From assembly GCA_017383125.1 (NCBI GenBank), contig JAFNYY010000114.1, forward strand, positions 1 through 40,694: 40,694 nt of DNA, in the 5' to 3' direction. Numbering within the stretch: the stretch's first letter is position 1; every line of letters begins with the position of its first letter. This document shows, in pieces, positions 7,222 to 31,214 of this stretch. A model generated the notes under the pieces. The model was not told where the DNA came from. It made no database searches and was given only the letters and a program-made list of their open reading frames with translations. The translations under genes and the position numbers were made by a program. This stretch comes from Schwartzia sp. (in: firmicutes) (GTDB lineage: Bacteria; Bacillota; Negativicutes; Selenomonadales; Selenomonadaceae).

Positions 7222-7341
7222 TATGAAAGGCTCCCCTTTAGGGGAGCTGTCAGCGAAGCTGACTGAGGGGTGAATGGATTCTTATGCAGCCTGTCACCCC
7301 TCCGCCCTTCGGGCACCTCCCCTAGAGGGGAGGCTTTCATA
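7222..7341. repeat. Dispersed palindromic repeat, full two-half copy
   Basis: The first half is gaaaggctcccctttagggg then agctgtcagcgaagctgact, ending gaggggtg. The second half, inverted, is cacccctccgcccttcgggc then acctcccctagaggggaggctttc. The outer ends gaaagg and gctttc pair, so the element can fold into one long cruciform with two side hairpins. It separates DUF4392 from pxpB. Confidence 0.8.
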
Positions 7342-9971: not shown

Positions 9972-10142
9972 GCAGCCTCCCCTTTAGGGGAGGTGGCCGA
10001 GCGGTAGCGAGGTCGGAGGGGTAAACCTTCTCCGATGGAGAAGGTGGCTGAGCGGCAGCGAAGTCGGATGAGGTCATATGGATACGGCCTCATTTACCTC
10101 ATCCACCGCCTACGGCGGTCCCCCTTCCCCAGAGGGGAATGT
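9972..10142. repeat. Composite of dispersed repeats between DUF1445 and pxpA
   Basis: Two related units lie head to tail. Unit one (about 9975-10021) has cctcccctttaggggagg then gccgagcggtagcgaggtcg-gaggggt. Unit two (about 10026-10140) has accttctccgatggagaagg then ctgagcggcagcgaagtcgg-atgaggt, and its inverted right half cctcatccaccgcctacggc-ggtcccccttccccagagggg. The two units represent two subtypes of the same architecture: an apical hairpin, a GC-rich side hairpin and a terminal gaggggt or atgaggt. Confidence 0.75.
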
Positions 10143-10177
10143 ATCTTTGGTAAATAGAATGTTAAGAGGAATAAATC

Positions 10178-10973: not shown

Positions 10974-11122
10974 GGCAATATAAACGCCCGTAGGGGGCGA
11001 CCGTAGTCGCCCCGATTTCCCGCAGGGCAATACTGCGAAGTAGTAAGGACCTTCTCCGGAGGAGAGGGTAAAGACCTTCTCCTATGGAGAAGGTGGTAGC
11101 CGAAGGCTGACGGATGAGGTTT
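10974..11122. repeat. Repeat cluster between pxpA and the T-box
   Basis: The first part, cgcccgtagggggcgaccgt-agtcgcccc (about 10984-11013), is a different GC-rich hairpin type. The second part has ccttctccggaggagagg, then ccttctcctatggagaaggt, then gtagccgaaggctgacggat-gaggtt (to 11122), the atgaggt subtype also seen at 10026 and 22430. There is no coding potential and no obvious T-tract terminator. Confidence 0.7.
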
Positions 11123-11175: not shown

Positions 11176-11199
11176 AATCTTTGTATTTCTATAGCAACA

Positions 11200-11440
11200 G
11201 GCGTTGAACGGAAGAGTAAGCTGCGAGAAGACTGCAGAGAGACCCCGGTTGGTGAAAGGGGTTGTCAAGGCGAAGCCGAAGTGCATCCGTGAGCCGCAAA
11301 GCCGAAGTCACAGTAGGCTTTGCCGTAGGGAAGGCGTTAACTTCTTCAAGTGGATAATTCTGCAGTATTACAGGCAGTTTTATCAAGTGGAGTGGAACCG
11401 CGCAGACGCGTCTCTATATGAGATGCGTCTGTTTTTTTTA
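11200..11440 (+). promoter_or_regulatory. Cysteine T-box riboswitch with terminator
   Basis: The T-box sequence TGGAACCGCG is at 11393-11402, preceded by aagtggag. The leader base stem pairs acgga (11208-11212) with tccgt (11286-11290), with AGTA (11214-11217) and AGAGA motifs inside and acccc/ggggt as a further helix. The specifier loop reads gccgaagTGCatcc, putting codon TGC (Cys) at 11282-11284. The terminator stem cagacgcgtctc/gagatgcgtctg lies at 11403-11431 with eight T at 11432-11439. Uncharged tRNA-Cys should stabilise the antiterminator and switch on cysE, cysS and the genes behind them. Confidence 0.92.
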
Positions 11441-20534: not shown

Positions 20535-22226
20535 TCAGTTTGTGCTTGTATTTACTTCAAAGGTTCTCGGCCAGGGGAAGTATTGCCGGATGGTTTTTCG
20601 CTTTGGATAAATTGCTTCACCATCAATGATATACGGTTTTCTCCATGCCGCGGTCTCCATAAGACGGCGGCTTCTTTCTTTCAGTGCGTAGTCATTGAGG
20701 ATGATGAGCCACTGATAGTCCCGGCCCAGATCAAGGTCACCGGTATTGAAGAAGCCTCTACGATAAAATTCATCGTGTATTCTGTCGATGGAGTCTTTAA
20801 GGTATATACTGTCCTCGGCAAAGTGGGCGTCTAGTATTTCTGTGGCCAGTGCGGAGTGCTGTTGACGGATCTGCGGCCGGTCGACATATCTCTGCCTGCC
20901 GATATGGGAGAGAACCGCTTCACAGAGGGCGGTTCCGATTGAATTTGAGGCGGTGTTCCAGCCGCCGTAGGAGGTGAGCAGATGAAGGGGGATGCCCTTG
21001 CGGATCAGGAGCGGCAGCAGTGTTTCCTCTGCGGTGAAGCTGCGGCTCAGGTCAACCAGAGCGATGTCGGTATCATTTTTGGAGAGCATGCCACTGAGCC
21101 GTGGGACTGCTTTTCTCCGTGCCGTTAACGCCTCCGGGGTTTTGTCGCCGGCGTGGATGAAGAGTGTTATGTCGGCGGATTCTCCTGCGGTCTTTTTTAT
21201 TCCGAGCAGAGAGATTTCCTCGGCAGCGGTGTCGGCGAGATTGGCGGCCATGTAGGGGAAGAAGTCCTGCCCTTCATTATCCAGAGAGTAGGCCGTTGCC
21301 ACAGTAAGGGAATTATTTGAGCGGCGGACAGCTAAGCGGGTGATGATGGAGAGAGCCAGCTCATCGGCACCTCGTACAAGGTGGAGCCGGTCAGAATTGC
21401 CGAAGTGTTCTATCAGGTGACGACGCTCCCGATTGCCGGGGCCGTACTTTTCTCCGTCGTCCTGACCGATGAACAGTTCCATTACTACCCCTTCCCGGGT
21501 CAGGTCGGCGAGAGCAATGGCAGTTTTTTCGTGGGTGGGATGGATGGCCTGATAGCGTTTCAGATTTTGAGGCTTTATGTAGTTGTTCGGGTCGTTGAAG
21601 TCAAGGAGTTCTTTCAGCTGCAGCTGTTCGTCCTCGGTGGCTTCGCCTCGTTCCGCCTTTTCTTCCAGTCGGGCGTATTTCGTTATGGCCAGCCGTTCTT
21701 CGTAGAGGGTTATCTCCGGTGGGGGCAGCAGGCGGGGGAGAATGCTGAACACATAGACCGGAATATTGGGATTTTCCCGATGAAGCTGACGAAGGAAGTT
21801 TATGGCGCTCTGTCTTTCCTCCTGCGTTATAAGCTTGTCCCGGGAGGCGAGAAGTCCGCCGGCCATGAGCTGGTCGGCGGAAATGATGATGGCGTCAGGC
21901 TTTTTTTCTGCGGCAAGGGATAGCAGAGTCTTTCTCATCTCTGAGTACTGACCGGGCTGGGTGTAGTAGTCCATCAGCTCTCTTGGGGGAAGGATGACTT
22001 CAATACCGGCCAGCCGGGAGTCTCTGACCACATAATCGGAGCAGGGGGGACGACTGTCCAGAGGGAGCAGAAGGATACGGAGCAGGCTGTCCGCTTTTTC
22101 TGCAACGGGGGCAGGCGGAGATGGTTGGGGGGATGGGAAGCGATTGGTGATGATGGGGTAGCAGAGAGCGGCAATAATGACAAACAAAAAGATGATGATA
22201 CGACCGGCACGATTGCTCTTTGTCAT
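20535..22226 (-). CDS. DUF4127 family protein with N-terminal membrane anchor
   Basis: A 563-residue protein. Residues 9-27 (RIIIFLFVIIAALCYPIIT) form one membrane anchor or uncleaved signal, followed by a Pro/Ser-rich linker, so the rest faces outside the cytoplasm. The family marks are ILLLPLDSRPPCSDYV, PPRELMDYYTQPG, DAIIISADQLMAGGLLASR, PVYVFSILPRLLPPP, GQDDGEKYGP and LLTSYGGWNTASNSIGTALCEAV. DUF4127 proteins have no established function that I know of; the DDSRP-like and GGWNT motifs suggest a hydrolase-like fold, but that is a guess. The start has aggag 7 nt upstream. The region between it and gltX holds the structured element at 22272 and a repeat. Confidence 0.85.
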   Translation of the reverse strand: MTKSNRAGRIIIFLFVIIAALCYPIITNRFPSPQPSPPAPVAEKADSLLRILLLPLDSRPPCSDYVVRDSRLAGIEVILPPRELMDYYTQPGQYSEMRKTLLSLAAEKKPDAIIISADQLMAGGLLASRDKLITQEERQSAINFLRQLHRENPNIPVYVFSILPRLLPPPEITLYEERLAITKYARLEEKAERGEATEDEQLQLKELLDFNDPNNYIKPQNLKRYQAIHPTHEKTAIALADLTREGVVMELFIGQDDGEKYGPGNRERRHLIEHFGNSDRLHLVRGADELALSIITRLAVRRSNNSLTVATAYSLDNEGQDFFPYMAANLADTAAEEISLLGIKKTAGESADITLFIHAGDKTPEALTARRKAVPRLSGMLSKNDTDIALVDLSRSFTAEETLLPLLIRKGIPLHLLTSYGGWNTASNSIGTALCEAVLSHIGRQRYVDRPQIRQQHSALATEILDAHFAEDSIYLKDSIDRIHDEFYRRGFFNTGDLDLGRDYQWLIILNDYALKERSRRLMETAAWRKPYIIDGEAIYPKRKTIRQYFPWPRTFEVNTSTN

Positions 22227-22271: not shown

Positions 22272-22416
22272 TACCGCCGAATATGATTAGACGAAAACAC
22301 ATTTGCATTCGGTTATCCACGCAACGGTACTAAGCTCCTGTTGCACAAGCCTATTTGCAGGTCGCTGAGTACCGGCGTGGATAAACGGTTTTCTTACTAA
22401 TCATATTATGGCGGAA
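22272..22416. ncRNA. Structured element, copy A (candidate noncoding RNA or folded DNA site)
   Basis: Outer stem: ccgccgaatatgattag (22274-22290) with ctaatcatattatggcgg (22397-22414). Next stem: gaaaac (22293-22298) with gttttc (22389-22394). Then a 13-nt one-sided bulge, a 10-bp stem ttatccacgc (22313-22322) with gcgtggataa (22375-22384), and cggtact with agtaccg. The apex has a hairpin aagct-cctgttgcaca-agcct whose loop cctg can pair with downstream cagg (22358-22361), a possible pseudoknot. The core is shared with 30405-30550. It lies between gltX and the DUF4127 gene. The transcribed strand is unknown. I do not recognise a known family. Confidence 0.6.
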
Positions 22417-22429
22417 CATACATTAAGGA

Positions 22430-22478
22430 ATCCTTCCCCTTTGGGGAAGGGGGACCGCCGAAGGCGGTGGATGAGGTT
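22430..22478. repeat. Dispersed repeat, atgaggt subtype
   Basis: ccttcccctttggggaagg, then gaccgccgaaggcggtgg, then atgaggttg, ending 4 nt before the gltX stop codon. Same subtype as the right part of the copy at 10026-10140 (inverted). Confidence 0.75.
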
Positions 22479-22481
22479 GTG

Positions 22482-23975
22482 TTATGCCAGCTTCGCAATG
22501 CCTGCATTGAGGCGGGCGATGGATTCATCCTTGCCCAGCAGGTAGAGCAGCTCCGTTACGCCGCCGGGGGTAACACGGCAGCCGGAGAGGGCAATGCGCA
22601 GAGGCCACATGATAGTACCCATCTTCTTGCCGGAGGCTTCGATATAAGCGTGGAGAGCTTCGTTGATTTTGTCCGGATTCCAGTCAGCAGGATCAACGGC
22701 AGCAAGGGCTGCAGTAGCTGCCGGAATGATTTCACCGGCCAGCTCCAAAGTAACCTTGTTCTTCTTATTGAGGAAGTCCTCGGAGGTGTACTCATGAGGA
22801 GTCGGGAGGAAGTCAATCTTTTCAGGTATTTCACCGAGACGGGAAACGCGGGTCTTGAGCAGAGCAGCGAGATATACCCACTTGTCGCCGAGGCTGTCGG
22901 CGATTTCCCTTGCATAGGGACGAGCGAGGGCGGCGAAGTCGTCGTCGCTCATAGCCTTCAGGTATTCGCTGTTGAACCAGTCCAGCTTGGCGTAGTCAAA
23001 TACGGCCGGAGACTTGGAGAGTCCTTCCAAAGTAAAGGCGGCCTGCATCTCCTCCATGGAGAAGACTTCCTGAGTGGACTTGGGACTCCAGCCAAGAAGG
23101 GCCACATAATTGGTGATAGCCTCCGGGAGATAGCCAAGGTCCACAAGCTCGGAGAAACCGGTGGAGCCGTGGCGCTTGGAGAGCTTGGAAACGGAGCCGT
23201 CTTCATTCTTGCCCATTACCGGCGGCAGATGAATGAAAGCAGGAGGTGTCCAGCCGAGGAAATCATAGAGAAGCACATGTTTCGGGGTGGAGGTGATAAA
23301 CTCGACACCGCGGATGATGTGGCTTACATCCATGAGATGGTCATCGATGACATTGGCGAAGTTGTAGGTGGGGAGGCCGTCACGCTTGATGAGAACCTGA
23401 TCCTCCAGCTCGCTGGCATCAATAGAGATATTGCCGTGAACGATATCATAGAAGGTCACCGGGCCGGAGGGAGGCATAAGCTGACGGATAACGAAGGGTA
23501 CTCCGGCAGCAGCCTTGGCATCGGATTCTTCTTTGGAGAGAGCGCGGCAGATTTCGCAGTGGCCTGGCTTTTTCTTATATTTATCAGCTTCATCGGCCGG
23601 TGCCGGCTCAGCCTCGTCGGCAGCGGAGCTGTCGCAGAAGCAGCGATAGGCATGACCGGAGGCGATGAGCTCATCAGCGTATTTCTGATAGATTTCCTTG
23701 CGCTCACTCTGGACATAAGGGCCGTATTCACCACCGATATCGGGGCCTTCGTCGGCAGTGATATGAGCGGCAGCGAGAGTGCGCTTGATGAAGTCGACTG
23801 CATCGGCGACAAAGCGCTTCTGGTCGGTATCTTCAATGCGGAGGATGAAGTCGCCCTGTTCCTTCTTGGCATAGAGATATGCGTAGAGAGCAGTGCGGAG
23901 ATTGCCAATGTGCATATAGCCTGTGGGGCTGGGGGCAAAGCGGGTACGAACCCGCTGCTTAAGATTGTCGGACAT
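22482..23975 (-). CDS. gltX: Glutamyl-tRNA synthetase
   Basis: A 497-residue class Ib synthetase charging tRNA-Glu. The HIGH motif is FAPSPTGYMHIGNLRTALYAYLYA, FILRIEDTDQKRF follows, and KLSKRHGSTGF is the KMSKS motif. Between them are YRCFCDSS and GHCEICRAL, a Cys set that could bind zinc, and GLPTYNFANVIDDHLMDVSHIIRG. Many Firmicutes charge both tRNA-Glu and tRNA-Gln with this enzyme and then amidate; whether that holds here cannot be seen. In Firmicutes gltX often precedes cysE; here it is on the other strand 10 kb away. The start follows agaggaac. No T-tract terminator is seen; the repeat at 22430 lies directly after the stop. Confidence 0.95.
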   Translation of the reverse strand: MSDNLKQRVRTRFAPSPTGYMHIGNLRTALYAYLYAKKEQGDFILRIEDTDQKRFVADAVDFIKRTLAAAHITADEGPDIGGEYGPYVQSERKEIYQKYADELIASGHAYRCFCDSSAADEAEPAPADEADKYKKKPGHCEICRALSKEESDAKAAAGVPFVIRQLMPPSGPVTFYDIVHGNISIDASELEDQVLIKRDGLPTYNFANVIDDHLMDVSHIIRGVEFITSTPKHVLLYDFLGWTPPAFIHLPPVMGKNEDGSVSKLSKRHGSTGFSELVDLGYLPEAITNYVALLGWSPKSTQEVFSMEEMQAAFTLEGLSKSPAVFDYAKLDWFNSEYLKAMSDDDFAALARPYAREIADSLGDKWVYLAALLKTRVSRLGEIPEKIDFLPTPHEYTSEDFLNKKNKVTLELAGEIIPAATAALAAVDPADWNPDKINEALHAYIEASGKKMGTIMWPLRIALSGCRVTPGGVTELLYLLGKDESIARLNAGIAKLA

Positions 23976-24004: not shown

Positions 24005-24182
24005 TTTTTTTGAAAGCCTTCCCTTTTTCGACTCACTAAACTCATACATCGCTTCGCTCGTATTCATTAAGTGAGTTAGCCAAACGGGAGGTGGCACGAA
24101 GTGCCGGAGGGGTAACTGCTAAGCGGTATGGAGGCCTCCCCTGCAAGGGGAGGTGTCCGAGCAAAGCGAGGACGGAGGGGTT
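24005..24182. repeat. Nested repeat copies upstream of gltX
   Basis: A first palindromic copy (24013-24112) opens with aaagccttccc and closes with gggaggtggcacgaagtgcc-ggaggggt, and carries an inserted inverted repeat, gactcactaa ... ttaagtgagtt, around tcgcttcgctcg. A second left-half copy (24131-24182) follows: ggcctcccctgcaaggggag-gtgtccgagcaaagcgagga-cggaggggtt. There is no gene in 23976-24388; gltX transcripts must start inside or just after this block, but I cannot place a clear promoter. Confidence 0.7.
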
Positions 24183-24207
24183 AAGAATTCCTTTGAGCTG
24201 ATAACCC

Positions 24208-24393
24208 CTCAGTCAGCTTCGCTGACAGCTCCCCTTTCAGGGGAGCCTTTGAGATTGATTAAAAGTTACCTCAGTCAGCTTCGCTGACAGCTCCCCTTTC
24301 AGGGGAGCCTATGAGATTGATTAAAAGTTACCTCAGTCTGCTTCGTAGACAGCTCCCATGGAGGGGAGCCTATGAGACCGGTTATAGGTTACA
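24208..24393. repeat. Tandem array of three 62-bp repeat units
   Basis: Units begin with ctcagtc at 24208, 24270 and 24332, an exact 62-bp period. Each has tcagcttcgctga, then agctcccctttcaggggagc, then a tail tatgagattgattaaaagtt. Units one and two are almost identical. Unit three has diverged in a compensatory way (tctgcttcgtaga keeps its stem) and has the tail gagaccggttataggtt, like the copy near 332-346. The array ends on the dapL stop codon at 24389-24391. Confidence 0.85.
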
Positions 24394-27590: not shown

Positions 27591-27676
27591 ATTCAAGTTA
27601 GAGTGTCAGCATATATCCGGCACTCGGCATTGCTTTGTCGGTACCGGCGTTATATTTCTTGTTGGGGGTAGATTTT

Positions 27677-30304
27677 TTGAAGAACTTATCGGGTAATGAG
27701 CTTCGCGAAGCCTATTTGAAATTTTTTGCTGAGAAGAAGGGACATCTTCGTCTGGACAGCGCCTCGCTGATTCCGGAGAATGACCCCACTCTTCTCATGA
27801 TTGGTGCCGGCATGGCTCCCTTCAAGCCGTTCTTTACCGGCAAGATGAAGCCGCCTCGCACTCGTATCACCACAAGCCAGCGCTGCGTTCGCACCGGCGA
27901 TATTGAGAATGTCGGCCGCACCGCTCGCCATCAGACTTTCTTTGAAATGCTGGGCAACTTCTCCTTTGGCGATTACTTCAAGGCTGAGGCTATTCCCTGG
28001 GCATGGGAGTTCCTTACTGAAGTACTGGAGATGCCGAAGGATAAGCTCTATGCTACCGTATATCCGAAGGATGACGAGGCTGTAGAAATCTGGAAGCAGC
28101 AGCCCGGCTTCTATCAGGACCATATCGTAAAGCTGGAAGACAATTTCTGGGAAATCGGCCCCGGCCCCTGCGGTCCGGACTCCGAAATCTACATCGACCT
28201 CGGTGCAGATCGCGGCTGCGGTCAGCCCACCTGCGGTGTAGGCTGCGACTGCGACCGTTATTTGGAAATCTGGAACCTTGTATTCACTCAGTTTGACCGT
28301 ACCGAGGACGGCGAGTATCTGCCGCTGGCCAAGAAGAACATCGATACCGGTGCCGGCCTCGAGCGACTTGCTTCCGTACTTCAGGGCAAGCGCTCCAACT
28401 TTGAAACCGACCTTCTTTTCCCGATCATTGAATACACCGCCAAGACCTGCGGCAAGGAATATGGTGCAAATCCTCAGGATGATATCTCCATGAAGGTTAT
28501 TGCCGACCATGCCCGCAGCATGAGCGTTATGATTATGGATGGCATCCTCCCCTCCAATGAGGGCCGCGGTTATGTCCTCCGTCGTATTCTTCGCCGTGCA
28601 GTCCGCCATGGCCGTATGCTGGGTATCACCGGCAGTTTCCTGGCCGGTGCTGTTGAGGCTGTTATCAAGATTTATGAAGGCGCAGCCGGCTTTGAAGCTC
28701 TTACTGCCCGTCAGGACTACATCAAGAAGGTTATCAGCCTTGAGGAAGAGCGTTTCCATGAGACTCTCAATCAGGGTATCGAAATTCTCGATGGCTACAT
28801 TGCTGATATGAAGGCTGCCGGCAAGCAGGCTCTTGACGGTGAGCTTGGCTTCAAGCTCTATGATACCTTCGGCTTCCCCTGGGAGCTTACCGCTGAAATC
28901 CTTGAGGATAACGGTCTGACTTTGGACAAGGATGGCTTCGATGCCGCCATGAACGCCCAGCGTACCCGCGCCCGTGAGGCTCGTCAGGAGAACCAGCGCG
29001 TAGCTGTTCCTGACCTTACCGGTATTGATATTTCCGCACTTCGCCGCGATGAAAATGCCACCGAGGCAAAAGTTGTCGCCATCTGGAAGGACGGCGTTCT
29101 CGTCAACGAGCTTACCGACGGCGAGGAAGCCGGCGTTATCCTCGATGTTACCCCCTTCTATGCAGAGGGCGGCGGACAGGTTGGCGATGTGGGTTTCCTG
29201 AAGAGTGAGCTTGGCCGTCTTGAGGTAGCCAATGCCAAGAAGCTGCCGGATGGTACCGTATATCACATTGCCTATGTTGCCGAGGGTCAGATTAGGGTCG
29301 GCGACAAGGTTGAAATTGAAATCGACAAGAAGCTGAAGCTTGCTTCGGCCCGCAATCATACCGCAACCCATCTCCTTCAGGCTGCACTGAAGAAGGTTGT
29401 CGGAAATCAGGTAAATCAGGCAGGCTCCCTTGTAACTTCGGAGCGCCTGCGCTTTGACTTCTCCAACTTCGAGCCGGTTACTGAACAGCAGCTGGCTGAT
29501 GTTGAGGAACTGGTAAATGAAGAAATCCTCAAGGGAATCGATGTAGAGATTGAGGAGATGGCTCAGGCTGCTGCCCGTGAGAAGGGTGCAATGGCTCTCT
29601 TCGGTGAGAAGTACGGTGATATCGTTCGCGTCGTTACCGTTCCGGGATTCTCCATGGAGCTCTGCGGTGGTTCTCATGTAAAGAATATCGGGCAGATTGG
29701 TCTCTTCAAGATTGTCAGCGAGTCCGGTGTTGCTGCCGGTGTTCGCCGCATTGAGGCTATCACCGGTGCGGCTGCTCTCGAGTATGCTCGCCGTCAGGAG
29801 GCAGCCGTCAAGGAGGCTGCTGCCATCCTCAAGACCCGTCCGGCTGATGTCGTTGCCAAGCTGAACGCTCTCGTAGCCGAGCATAAGGAAATGGCTCAGG
29901 AGATTGCTGCTGTCAACGCTGCCCGTGAGAAAATGGATGCACAGAACCTCGTCATGGGCATGAAGAAGTACGGTGAAACTCCAGTAGCTATGGGCAAGGT
30001 AAATGCTGAGTCCATCGATGATATTCGCCGCATGGCTGACCTGGTACTTGAGCAGCTGGCCGGTGGTCTTGTCATTTTGGCTGCTGTAGCCGATGACAAG
30101 GTTACCTTCGTTGCCAAGGTTTCCAAGGAAGCTGTCAAGGCTGGTTTCCATGCCGGCAAGCTTGTCAAAGAGGCTGCTCAGGTTGTGGGCGGCAACGGCG
30201 GCGGCCGTCCGGATATGGCACAGGCTGGCGGCAAGAACCCCGAGAAGCTGCAGGATGCCTTTGATAAGGTTACTGAGGTTATCAAGGCTACTCTTGGTCT
30301 GTAA
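27677..30304 (+). CDS. alaS: Alanyl-tRNA synthetase
   Basis: An 875-residue class II synthetase charging tRNA-Ala and editing mischarged Ser/Gly. Domains in order: the catalytic core (NELREAYLKFFAEKKGHLRLDSASLIPENDPTLLMIGAGMAPFKPFF; RTGDIENVGRTARHQTFFEMLGNFSFGDYFK; GAGLERLASVLQG), the tRNA-binding helical part (GRGYVLRRILRRAVRHGR), the editing domain with HTATHLLQAAL and the second zinc-site half CGGSHVKNIGQ, and the C-terminal C-Ala domain ending GGNGGGRPDMAQAGGKNPEKLQDAF. The start is taken as TTG 27677 because gggggt lies 7 nt upstream and the family begins at this point (xKNLSGNELREAYL); the TTG at 27635 has no ribosome site. Confidence 0.96.
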   Translation: MKNLSGNELREAYLKFFAEKKGHLRLDSASLIPENDPTLLMIGAGMAPFKPFFTGKMKPPRTRITTSQRCVRTGDIENVGRTARHQTFFEMLGNFSFGDYFKAEAIPWAWEFLTEVLEMPKDKLYATVYPKDDEAVEIWKQQPGFYQDHIVKLEDNFWEIGPGPCGPDSEIYIDLGADRGCGQPTCGVGCDCDRYLEIWNLVFTQFDRTEDGEYLPLAKKNIDTGAGLERLASVLQGKRSNFETDLLFPIIEYTAKTCGKEYGANPQDDISMKVIADHARSMSVMIMDGILPSNEGRGYVLRRILRRAVRHGRMLGITGSFLAGAVEAVIKIYEGAAGFEALTARQDYIKKVISLEEERFHETLNQGIEILDGYIADMKAAGKQALDGELGFKLYDTFGFPWELTAEILEDNGLTLDKDGFDAAMNAQRTRAREARQENQRVAVPDLTGIDISALRRDENATEAKVVAIWKDGVLVNELTDGEEAGVILDVTPFYAEGGGQVGDVGFLKSELGRLEVANAKKLPDGTVYHIAYVAEGQIRVGDKVEIEIDKKLKLASARNHTATHLLQAALKKVVGNQVNQAGSLVTSERLRFDFSNFEPVTEQQLADVEELVNEEILKGIDVEIEEMAQAAAREKGAMALFGEKYGDIVRVVTVPGFSMELCGGSHVKNIGQIGLFKIVSESGVAAGVRRIEAITGAAALEYARRQEAAVKEAAAILKTRPADVVAKLNALVAEHKEMAQEIAAVNAAREKMDAQNLVMGMKKYGETPVAMGKVNAESIDDIRRMADLVLEQLAGGLVILAAVADDKVTFVAKVSKEAVKAGFHAGKLVKEAAQVVGGNGGGRPDMAQAGGKNPEKLQDAFDKVTEVIKATLGL

Positions 30305-30324: not shown

Positions 30325-30354
30325 AGAGCGAGGGCTTTGGCCCTCGCTTTTTCT
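30325..30354 (+). terminator. Terminator of alaS
   Basis: agcgagggc-tttg-gccctcgct at 30327-30348 is followed by TTTTCT. Confidence 0.9.
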
Positions 30355-30404: not shown

Positions 30405-30550
30405 CACCATCATATTGCACCCAACAGAAACACGATTTCTCTCGATAATCAATGCAGCGGTACCAGGCTCCTGCTTCACAAGCCTGATTCGCAGATAGCC
30501 AAGTACCGGCATTGATTAACGGTTTCTTTATGGGTGCTATATTGATGGTT
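30405..30550. ncRNA. Structured element, copy B (candidate noncoding RNA or folded DNA site)
   Basis: Same architecture as 22272-22416. The outer stem accatcatattgcaccca (30406-30423) pairs with tgggtgctatattgatggt (30531-30549) although its sequence is unrelated to that of copy A. agaaac (30426-30431) pairs with gtttct (30522-30527). The 13-nt bulge is acgatttctctcg. The stem taatcaatgc (30446-30455) pairs with gcattgatta (30509-30518), with three base pairs changed on both sides relative to copy A. Then cggtac with gtaccg, a hairpin caggct-cctgcttcaca-agcctg, and loop cctgc able to pair with gcag. It lies between the alaS terminator and the terminator of the convergent minus gene, so it belongs to neither transcript. 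Confidence 0.6.
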
Positions 30551-30576
30551 TTATATTAAGGAAGGTGATGCCTTTA

Positions 30577-30612
30577 ATAAAAAAGGTCTGCCAGCTGATG
30601 CTGACAGACCCT
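30577..30612 (-). terminator. Terminator of the secreted-protein gene
   Basis: On the minus strand ggtctgtcagc-atca-gctggcagacc is followed by TTTTTTAT. On plus this is the A tract at 30577-30584 and the stem at 30585-30610. Confidence 0.88.
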
Positions 30613-30629: not shown

Positions 30630-31214
30630 TTACCGTTTGTGCTGTGCGGTCTTTATGCGGGCAAAACGGTGGGCAAATTTTGCAGAGGTAATGAAGTAGC
30701 TTTTGAGGACTCGGGCGAAATCCTCAGAGGTGGTGTTGCTCATTGCGATGGCAAAGGCGAAGTTGCCGCGAACCCAACGGGCGGCATAGCTGCCATGGTC
30801 GGTGGAGCAGATATCTACAGTAACCAGATCAGAGGAAAGGAGCTGAGTGGTAGCCCATTCATATCCTACAAAACCGCTGATGTCATCGAGACCGCTGTCA
30901 GTACGGAGAGCGGTACGAACCATCAGCTCGCTGCCGTCAATCTGATTGACGAAGCGGAGGTCGCTGACGCGGCCGGCGATAGCAGAAATGATTACAGCCG
31001 GGTCATAGGCTCGATATATGTCACCGGGGAGATAGAGTACAGGGAAGCCAAGAGCATTCTGGAGAGACGGGATATCTTCATAGGTGCTGATGGGATTAGC
31101 GTCTGTGGCAGCGGCTTCGGTGGCAGGAGCTTCCTCAGCGAAAGCAGGAGCAGCGAAGGAGAAAGCAGCAACAGCGGCTACGGCCAAAGTTTTTTTCAGA
31201 CTGGCAAGTTTCAT
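30630..31214 (-). CDS. Secreted protein of unknown function
   Basis: A 194-residue protein with a clear signal peptide: KLASLKK, then the hydrophobic TLAVAAVAAFSFAA and cleavage after AFA (about residue 26). The mature part begins with an Ala/Glu/Thr-rich linker, then YEDIPSLQNALGFPVLYLPGDIY, AIAGRVSDLRFVNQIDGSELMVRTAL, DSGLDDISGFVGYEWATTQ and VRGNFAFAIAMSNTTSEDFARVL. This order (a KALGF-like segment, an IxGxxAEIRF-like strand, then RxAxGxxDISG) recurs in secreted proteins of gut Firmicutes, none of known function to me. The start follows ggaggaa 7 nt upstream. It is monocistronic with its own promoter and terminator. It may sit in the periplasm of a diderm cell. Confidence 0.82.
   Translation of the reverse strand: MKLASLKKTLAVAAVAAFSFAAPAFAEEAPATEAAATDANPISTYEDIPSLQNALGFPVLYLPGDIYRAYDPAVIISAIAGRVSDLRFVNQIDGSELMVRTALRTDSGLDDISGFVGYEWATTQLLSSDLVTVDICSTDHGSYAARWVRGNFAFAIAMSNTTSEDFARVLKSYFITSAKFAHRFARIKTAQHKR

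Follow-up and report, generated by a model that had tools for sequence, protein, structure and literature searches.

The window analysed here, a contig of 40,694 nucleotides (C96), belongs to a fragmented genome (G000; 1.76 Mb in 134 contigs, 84% complete) from an uncultured genus of the Selenomonadaceae, labelled g1, in which a second genome, G001, represents a sister species. Two copies of an imperfect hairpin lie in this window, and their stems differ in sequence while remaining paired, raising the question of what keeps them paired. The sequence-only reading of the locus preferred selection for structure to the drift of a decayed palindrome, and suggested either an independent RNA gene or a mobile folded DNA site. 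The features concerned are as follows.

22273 to 22415, plus strand: copy A, the second element copy in the window (138.9 bits, E 1.8e-29)
22420 to 22428, plus strand: 3' tail of copy A, acattaagg
22432 to 22450, no strand assigned: hairpin CCTTCCCC..GGGGAAGG just past the copy A tail, belonging to another short repeat family
30327 to 30348, no strand assigned: terminator-like hairpin 3' of alaS (27635 to 30304), from sequence
30406 to 30549, plus strand: copy B, imperfect hairpin element of about 143 nt without coding content (covariance-model match, 137.8 bits, E 3.3e-29)
30424 to 30425, plus strand: AC, the first conserved unpaired dinucleotide, at the foot of the second helix of copy B (model positions 19-20)
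30446 to 30455, plus strand: 5' arm of the copy B inner stem, taatcaatgc, pairing with 30509 to 30518 (from sequence)
30456 to 30457, plus strand: AG, two-base bulge of copy B on the 5' arm only (model positions 51-52)
30509 to 30518, plus strand: 3' arm of the copy B inner stem, gcattgatta (from sequence)
30550 to 30561, plus strand: 3' tail of copy B, tttatattaagg, the genus-g1 tail with consensus TTTACATTAAGG (from sequence)
30583 to 30612, minus strand: terminator-like hairpin of the convergent gene at 30630 to 31214 (minus)

Copy A has the inner stem ttatccacgc (22313-22322) with gcgtggataa (22375-22384), so that three pairs are changed on both sides relative to copy B with pairing kept, as originally described. 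The outer stems of the two copies likewise differ in sequence, both pair, and enclose nearly identical loops, although each stem is a subfamily version and not unique: that of copy A, CCGAATATGATTA, is similar to L048 and L036, and that of copy B, CCATCATAT..GCACCC, to two L002 copies. Copy B folds far better than its dinucleotide shuffles (z of -8.0 and -8.5 on its two strands) and is flanked by the alaS-side hairpin and the terminator-like hairpin of the convergent gene. The neighbours of copy A, a DUF4127 gene (20535-22226) and gltX (22482-23975), are both on the minus strand, and the copy, lying between them, is antisense to each. Elsewhere the window carries several short GC-rich palindromic repeat families (205-377, 7240-7335, 9974-10148, 11049-11096, 22425-22477 and 24128-24393), one of them arranged in 62-bp tandem units, and similar-looking GC-rich repeats in G001 fill gaps that hold the element in G000. 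A T-box leader (11195-11418; Rfam RF00230, 126.8 bits) precedes a gene pair that we take to encode a serine acetyltransferase and cysteinyl-tRNA synthetase.

DNA searches of the source genome returned 44 matches with copy B as the query and 46 with copy A, and a profile run over the collected loci identified 82 different copies or fragments. From 67 copies a covariance model was then made, which at E values up to 0.01 had 106 matches in G000, 78 in G001 and 9 in G021; since a few of the low-scoring matches are antisense readings of the same palindrome, roughly 100 copies in G000 is a fair figure. Model matches occur in 19 of the 380 genomes of the class and in 3 of its 102 genera, or 19 of the 189 genomes in the family. 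The carriers are both g1 genomes, 16 genomes of a second genus, g21, with between 2 and at least 16 matches each, and one g3 genome with a weak match. Among the matches listed for G001, at least 16 copies are clustered on contig C6 (89 kb) and at least 7 on C9 (778 kb). In Rfam no family reached its gathering score for the element, and a sub-threshold scan of copy B gave a single match at chance level. No match was found in viral contigs searched with one pattern, nor in phage and plasmid records, and carriage by phage, plasmid or virus was rejected for want of matches in those collections. The literature searched, mostly outside subscription journals, contained no published account of this repeat; the family appears to be undescribed.

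The consensus folds into one extended imperfect hairpin. Its outermost part is a stem of variable sequence (14 model pairs), followed inward by AC opposite TTA, a GAAAAC/GTTTTC helix and a one-sided bulge with CGCT..CGCT. Towards the apex come a long helix, which the AG bulge interrupts on one side, then an internal loop containing A.A, loops of TC/TC and TTC/TT, and finally a small hairpin at the tip. It is the unpaired positions that are conserved. At A51, all 124 g1 copies and 24 of 25 g21 copies have A, with the TA, TC and AA loop positions nearly as constant in both genera, and at model positions 19-20 the A and C are present in 115 and 117 of 124 g1 copies and in 19 and 20 of 25 g21 copies, respectively (gaps not shown). 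Bulges and internal loops hardly vary between the two genera, whereas the stem sequence is rewritten. The outer stem pairs, yet its sequence differs among subfamilies and genera, leaving no conserved terminal inverted repeat, and with its arms varying the consensus shows no GTAG or CGTC tag conserved at the ends. A smaller hairpin module, CTAARNTC-stem-TYRYTAAG, resembles the apical part of the element and occurs in other repeats and as extra hairpins in the 5' bulge of the element (window 24036-24090, L055, L044, L101, L217, L268, L103 and L124); of the 47 instances that do not belong to the plain element pattern, a few are probably chance matches or diverged element copies.

Covariation was assessed by counting the pairs of the structure and by parsimony. 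The first alignment omitted 8 of the 82 first-pass copies as cut or partial, the 67-row alignment a further 7 (cut copies and rows more than 90% alike position by position), and from a 149-row set the cut, antisense and duplicate rows were removed beforehand. Among the 67 copies of G000, both partners change in 44 of the 49 pairs, with a covariation score of 0.480 against 0.201 after shuffling, a value reached in 0 of 500 shuffles. For 26 copies of g21 the corresponding figures are 41 of 49 pairs and 0.634 against 0.182, which no shuffle in 500 reached, and structures slid along the alignment score far lower than the true one. Two copies could not have excluded chance or drift; 67 to 149 copies can, and the initial proposal that paired structure is maintained as sequence changes holds for the larger set.

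Gene context was taken from a codon-usage gene caller, used in place of a longest-ORF table that had miscalled strands. No copy in the resulting table lies inside a gene. Copies occur singly or paired between genes, including inverted pairs, and are dispersed rather than arranged in a cassette array. Divergent gaps, which hold two outward-facing promoters, rarely contain the element (3 of 61 in G000, 2 of 51 in G001 and 2 of 20 in g21), and in tandem gaps its orientation is about equally sense (19, 18 and 9) and antisense (22, 21 and 7), many sense-oriented copies beginning within 30 nt past the stop codon. An ACATTA/CATTAAGG-like tail is present on 75 of 124 g1 copies and on 0 of 24 g21 copies. 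In g1 a strict hairpin lies 2-28 nt beyond the 3' tail at 64 of 121 copies, compared with 7 of 121 on the 5' side and 1 of 121 after shuffling, and 41 of these 64 hairpins have a T-rich stretch behind them. No such enrichment was found in g21 (3 of 24 on the 3' side versus 1 of 24 on the 5' side). At a few loci the outer-stem arms looked like the neighbouring terminator, and templating of the outer stem by that terminator was considered and set aside.

Element sites turn over between species. In the G001 gap that corresponds to that of copy A the element is absent and other short repeats are present; where G000 has copy B, G001 has an oppositely oriented copy from another subfamily, whose tail faces an alaS terminator unlike that of G000. 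Of 76 G000 rows, compared with roughly two thirds of the G001 copies, 27 are matched by a G001 copy at the corresponding gap and 49 are not; these 76 rows, used for context and site counts, still include two antisense duplicates, L016 and L018 (plus strand). Because about a third of G000 copies share their gap with a G001 copy, many element sites are old. Of the 49 unmatched sites 14 were looked up in G001 and 12 located: two have a full copy (C7:58030-58168, L312; C5:54481-54624) and two an internally deleted copy (L305 and L306), short remnants are left at three, other repeats lie at two, and the remaining three have neither element nor repeats. The deleted copies (L305:528-610, L306:507-601) have lost the apical hairpin and kept the outer stem, as expected for palindrome deletion. 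The sequence-only reading had proposed a test for target-site duplications and for empty sites in related strains. An empty site is indeed seen at L064/L308, where stop codon and terminator hairpin are present in both species and the element lies between them only in G000, while no target-site duplication was recognised at L064/L308, L063/L310 or L020/L193, with the element ends only roughly placed. The idea, drawn from L020/L193, that the element supplies its own terminator is weakened, as at L064/L308 and L063/L310 the two species share the terminator but the element is confined to one of them.

Copies may also be reversed in place. Of the same-site copies that are closest or near-closest relatives, five are in the same orientation and four in opposite orientations. 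For two of these four the gap contains paired copies, which could have rearranged with each other, and the other two (L020/L193 and L074/L224) are single copies. In the tyrS-yebC gap of g21, G063 and G076 carry the element in one orientation and G021 in the opposite one, the inner sequence being nearly the same and the outer arms rewritten. G062 and G064 carry it 3' of tyrS in the G063/G076 orientation, with yebC outside the gene-called stretch, and the G062 element has one arm of each version. A g1 copy, L023, is also located 3' of tyrS.

Whether the paired state is kept in RNA or in DNA can be judged from the way pairs change. In RNA stems the usual intermediate between A-U and G-C is G.U. 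On a FastTree tree of 149 copies, parsimony gives 638 two-sided changes from one Watson-Crick pair to another, 78 changes from Watson-Crick to G.T, 136 to A.C and 127 to other combinations, and the element has G.T in 114 pair cells (1.6%) and A.C in 194 (2.7%), whereas 38 tRNAs from loci of the same family have G.T in 34 (7.5%) and A.C in 3 of 456 cells. G.T does not exceed A.C, unlike in the tRNAs, so it is not as RNA that the top strand is maintained. Read on the bottom strand, the excess of A.C becomes an excess of wobble pairs (136:78; p 9e-5 on the assumption of independent events), a hint that folding takes place on that strand. A structured RNA, either a small RNA or a 3'-UTR element selected at the RNA level, would account for this excess if transcribed from the bottom strand, as well as for the complex fold with invariant loops and for the many sense copies starting close behind stop codons at gene ends. 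However, G.U is rare on either strand by the standard of tRNA, orientation relative to genes is even, no Rfam family matches at gathering score, and single copies lose pairs freely. Promoters at copies A and B do not rise above shuffle level, with two promoter-like matches at copy B against 1.0 (sd 1.0) in shuffles and none at copy A. On the wobble, orientation and promoter evidence the independent RNA gene was rejected as the main reading; the element appears to be kept paired as DNA, an RNA gene is unlikely, and we give RNA-level selection in general only a small chance. Of the pair-breaking one-sided steps, 290 fall on terminal and 51 on internal branches, and of the two-sided steps 296 and 342, a contrast exaggerated by the parsimony resolution, which favours paired states at ties. 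This pattern is that of copies decaying after insertion and descended from lineages in which pairing mattered. The original opposition of selection to decay was hence too sharp: multicopy lineages do keep pairing, while individual copies decay, mostly on terminal branches.

Template switching at inverted repeats is a further source of apparently compensatory change, absent from the earlier reasoning. As the whole explanation, it would make the element an ancient palindrome in which template switching by DNA polymerase keeps the arms alike and flips the spacer, with neither selection for structure nor a dedicated enzyme. Such switching reportedly homogenises arms and inverts spacers (PMC8604942) and produces multi-base compensatory changes without a G-U step (PMC8794818). 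The Watson-Crick-only changes and the reversals fit this process, as do the orthologous copies, in which nine site pairs show 15 two-sided Watson-Crick changes versus 33 one-sided changes. Copying of arm from arm should nevertheless erase the bulges, the A.A mismatch and other one-sided features that are nearly invariant across two genera, and it leaves about 100 dispersed copies, their placing at gene 3' ends and the tail facing terminators unaccounted for. At L020/L193 the terminator side switched together with the element, although it lies outside the arms. Template switching probably contributes to the paired changes and to some reversals, but is improbable as a full account. A REP-like or IS200/IS605-type element moved by a known host Y1 HUH transposase is very unlikely, somewhat more so than an RNA. 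One PF01797 protein is present in G000 (C41) and one RAYT in G001, and placement 3' of genes with close pairs in opposite orientation resembles that of REPs, described as mostly 3' of genes and often adjacent in opposite orientation (PMC3733652). The two proteins differ, however, and 5 of 12 element-bearing genomes compared (G021, G063, G066, G071 and G032) have no PF01797 match. The RAYT, present in 1 of 39 genomes, was rejected as the mobiliser, since it is flanked by its own GTAGGGG repeats and not by the element. This gene (L267:2560-3950, G001 C9) lies behind about four tandem units of about 180 bp of GTAGGGG-type REP hairpins, and the different Y1-transposase-like protein of G000 (L268:3791-4162, C41) is cut by the contig end. 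A linked RAYT flanked by element copies was not found in the 84% complete G000 sequence. Neither G000 nor G001 has a match to RVT_1 (reverse transcriptase), and retro-mobility or derivation from a group II intron was rejected on that ground.

The reading we favour, with somewhat better than even confidence, is that of a small mobile DNA element, non-autonomous and some 143 bp long (plus a 12-nt 3' tail in g1), whose folded single strand is the conserved substrate; the mobile folded site of the original proposal fits the larger copy set. Copy number, covariation, Watson-Crick-only pairing, invariant bulges, turnover, reversal and placement all argue for a mobile DNA element, while no transposase or recombinase is tied to it, which counts against this reading. 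Also against it stand the absence of a recognised terminal inverted repeat or target-site duplication at the sites compared, the age of many sites, and the lack of the tail and of the hairpin association in g21. When single-stranded, one strand of the DNA (probably the bottom one as written) would fold, and a putative trans-acting enzyme, for which we infer the folded strand to be the substrate, would read the protruding AC, the CGCT..CGCT bulge, AG, TA/AA, TC and TTC/TT and insert the element beside an extruded terminator hairpin. Each round of propagation would select for pairing, probably aided by template-switch copying of arm from arm, and the inserted copy would then be free to decay. 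It is possible, though doubtful, that the element represents a new class of mobile DNA in which a large folded strand is recognised through protruding bases without a fixed end sequence, and is placed beside intrinsic terminators by an undescribed recombinase able to reverse it in place.

The family provides a natural test of covariation as proof of RNA structure, for covariation is overwhelming here and the shortage of wobble pairs points to DNA. Such families are easily filed as new non-coding RNAs by motif-discovery pipelines, and comparison of G.U with A.C is a cheap guard. The element could also lead to an enzyme that reads folded single-stranded DNA, and two species with about 180 model matches constitute a system for tracing the remodelling of gene 3' ends.

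Judged from sequence, the element is best read as a mobile DNA hairpin akin to REP/BIME, BOX and MITE repeats without their defining ends. With MITEs it shares a non-coding, multicopy nature and insertion polymorphism between species, but not conserved terminal inverted repeats. It differs from structured RNAs of the Rfam type in having no curated-model match and in not tolerating G.U in its covarying stems. In the Bacillus cereus group, bcr1 is an intergenic structured repeat of about 150 bp confined to that one group, for which target-site duplication has been reported; it is like the element in size, intergenic location and group restriction, and no target-site duplication was recognised in the element sites compared. 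In integron attC sites the stem sequence varies freely and the conserved bases protrude from one strand of folded single-stranded DNA. The element resembles them in its free stem and protruding bases, but its copies are scattered 3' of housekeeping genes and form no cassette array. Palindromes shaped by template switching (PMC8604942, PMC8794818) share with it one-step paired changes and inversion between arms, whereas the element has conserved asymmetric bulges and dispersed copies. The pneumococcal BOX, RUP and SPRITE repeats (PMC3049150) are likewise interspersed structured repeats 3' of genes that need no ORF of their own, and over-representation between convergent genes is a further likeness. 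Unlike them, no terminal inverted repeat common to the element and an IS was found, its covariation is Watson-Crick only across two genera, and its tail faces terminator-like hairpins. REP/BIME repeats (PMC3733652) are 20-40 bp long with a GTAG/CGTC end tag and are paired with a RAYT, whereas the element spans 143 nt, lacks the tag in its consensus and has carriers that share no associated RAYT. Both nonetheless are imperfect hairpins in many copies at gene 3' ends and in inverted pairs, and the folded single strand, which in REP/BIME is the substrate of a transposase, is proposed to play the same role in the element.
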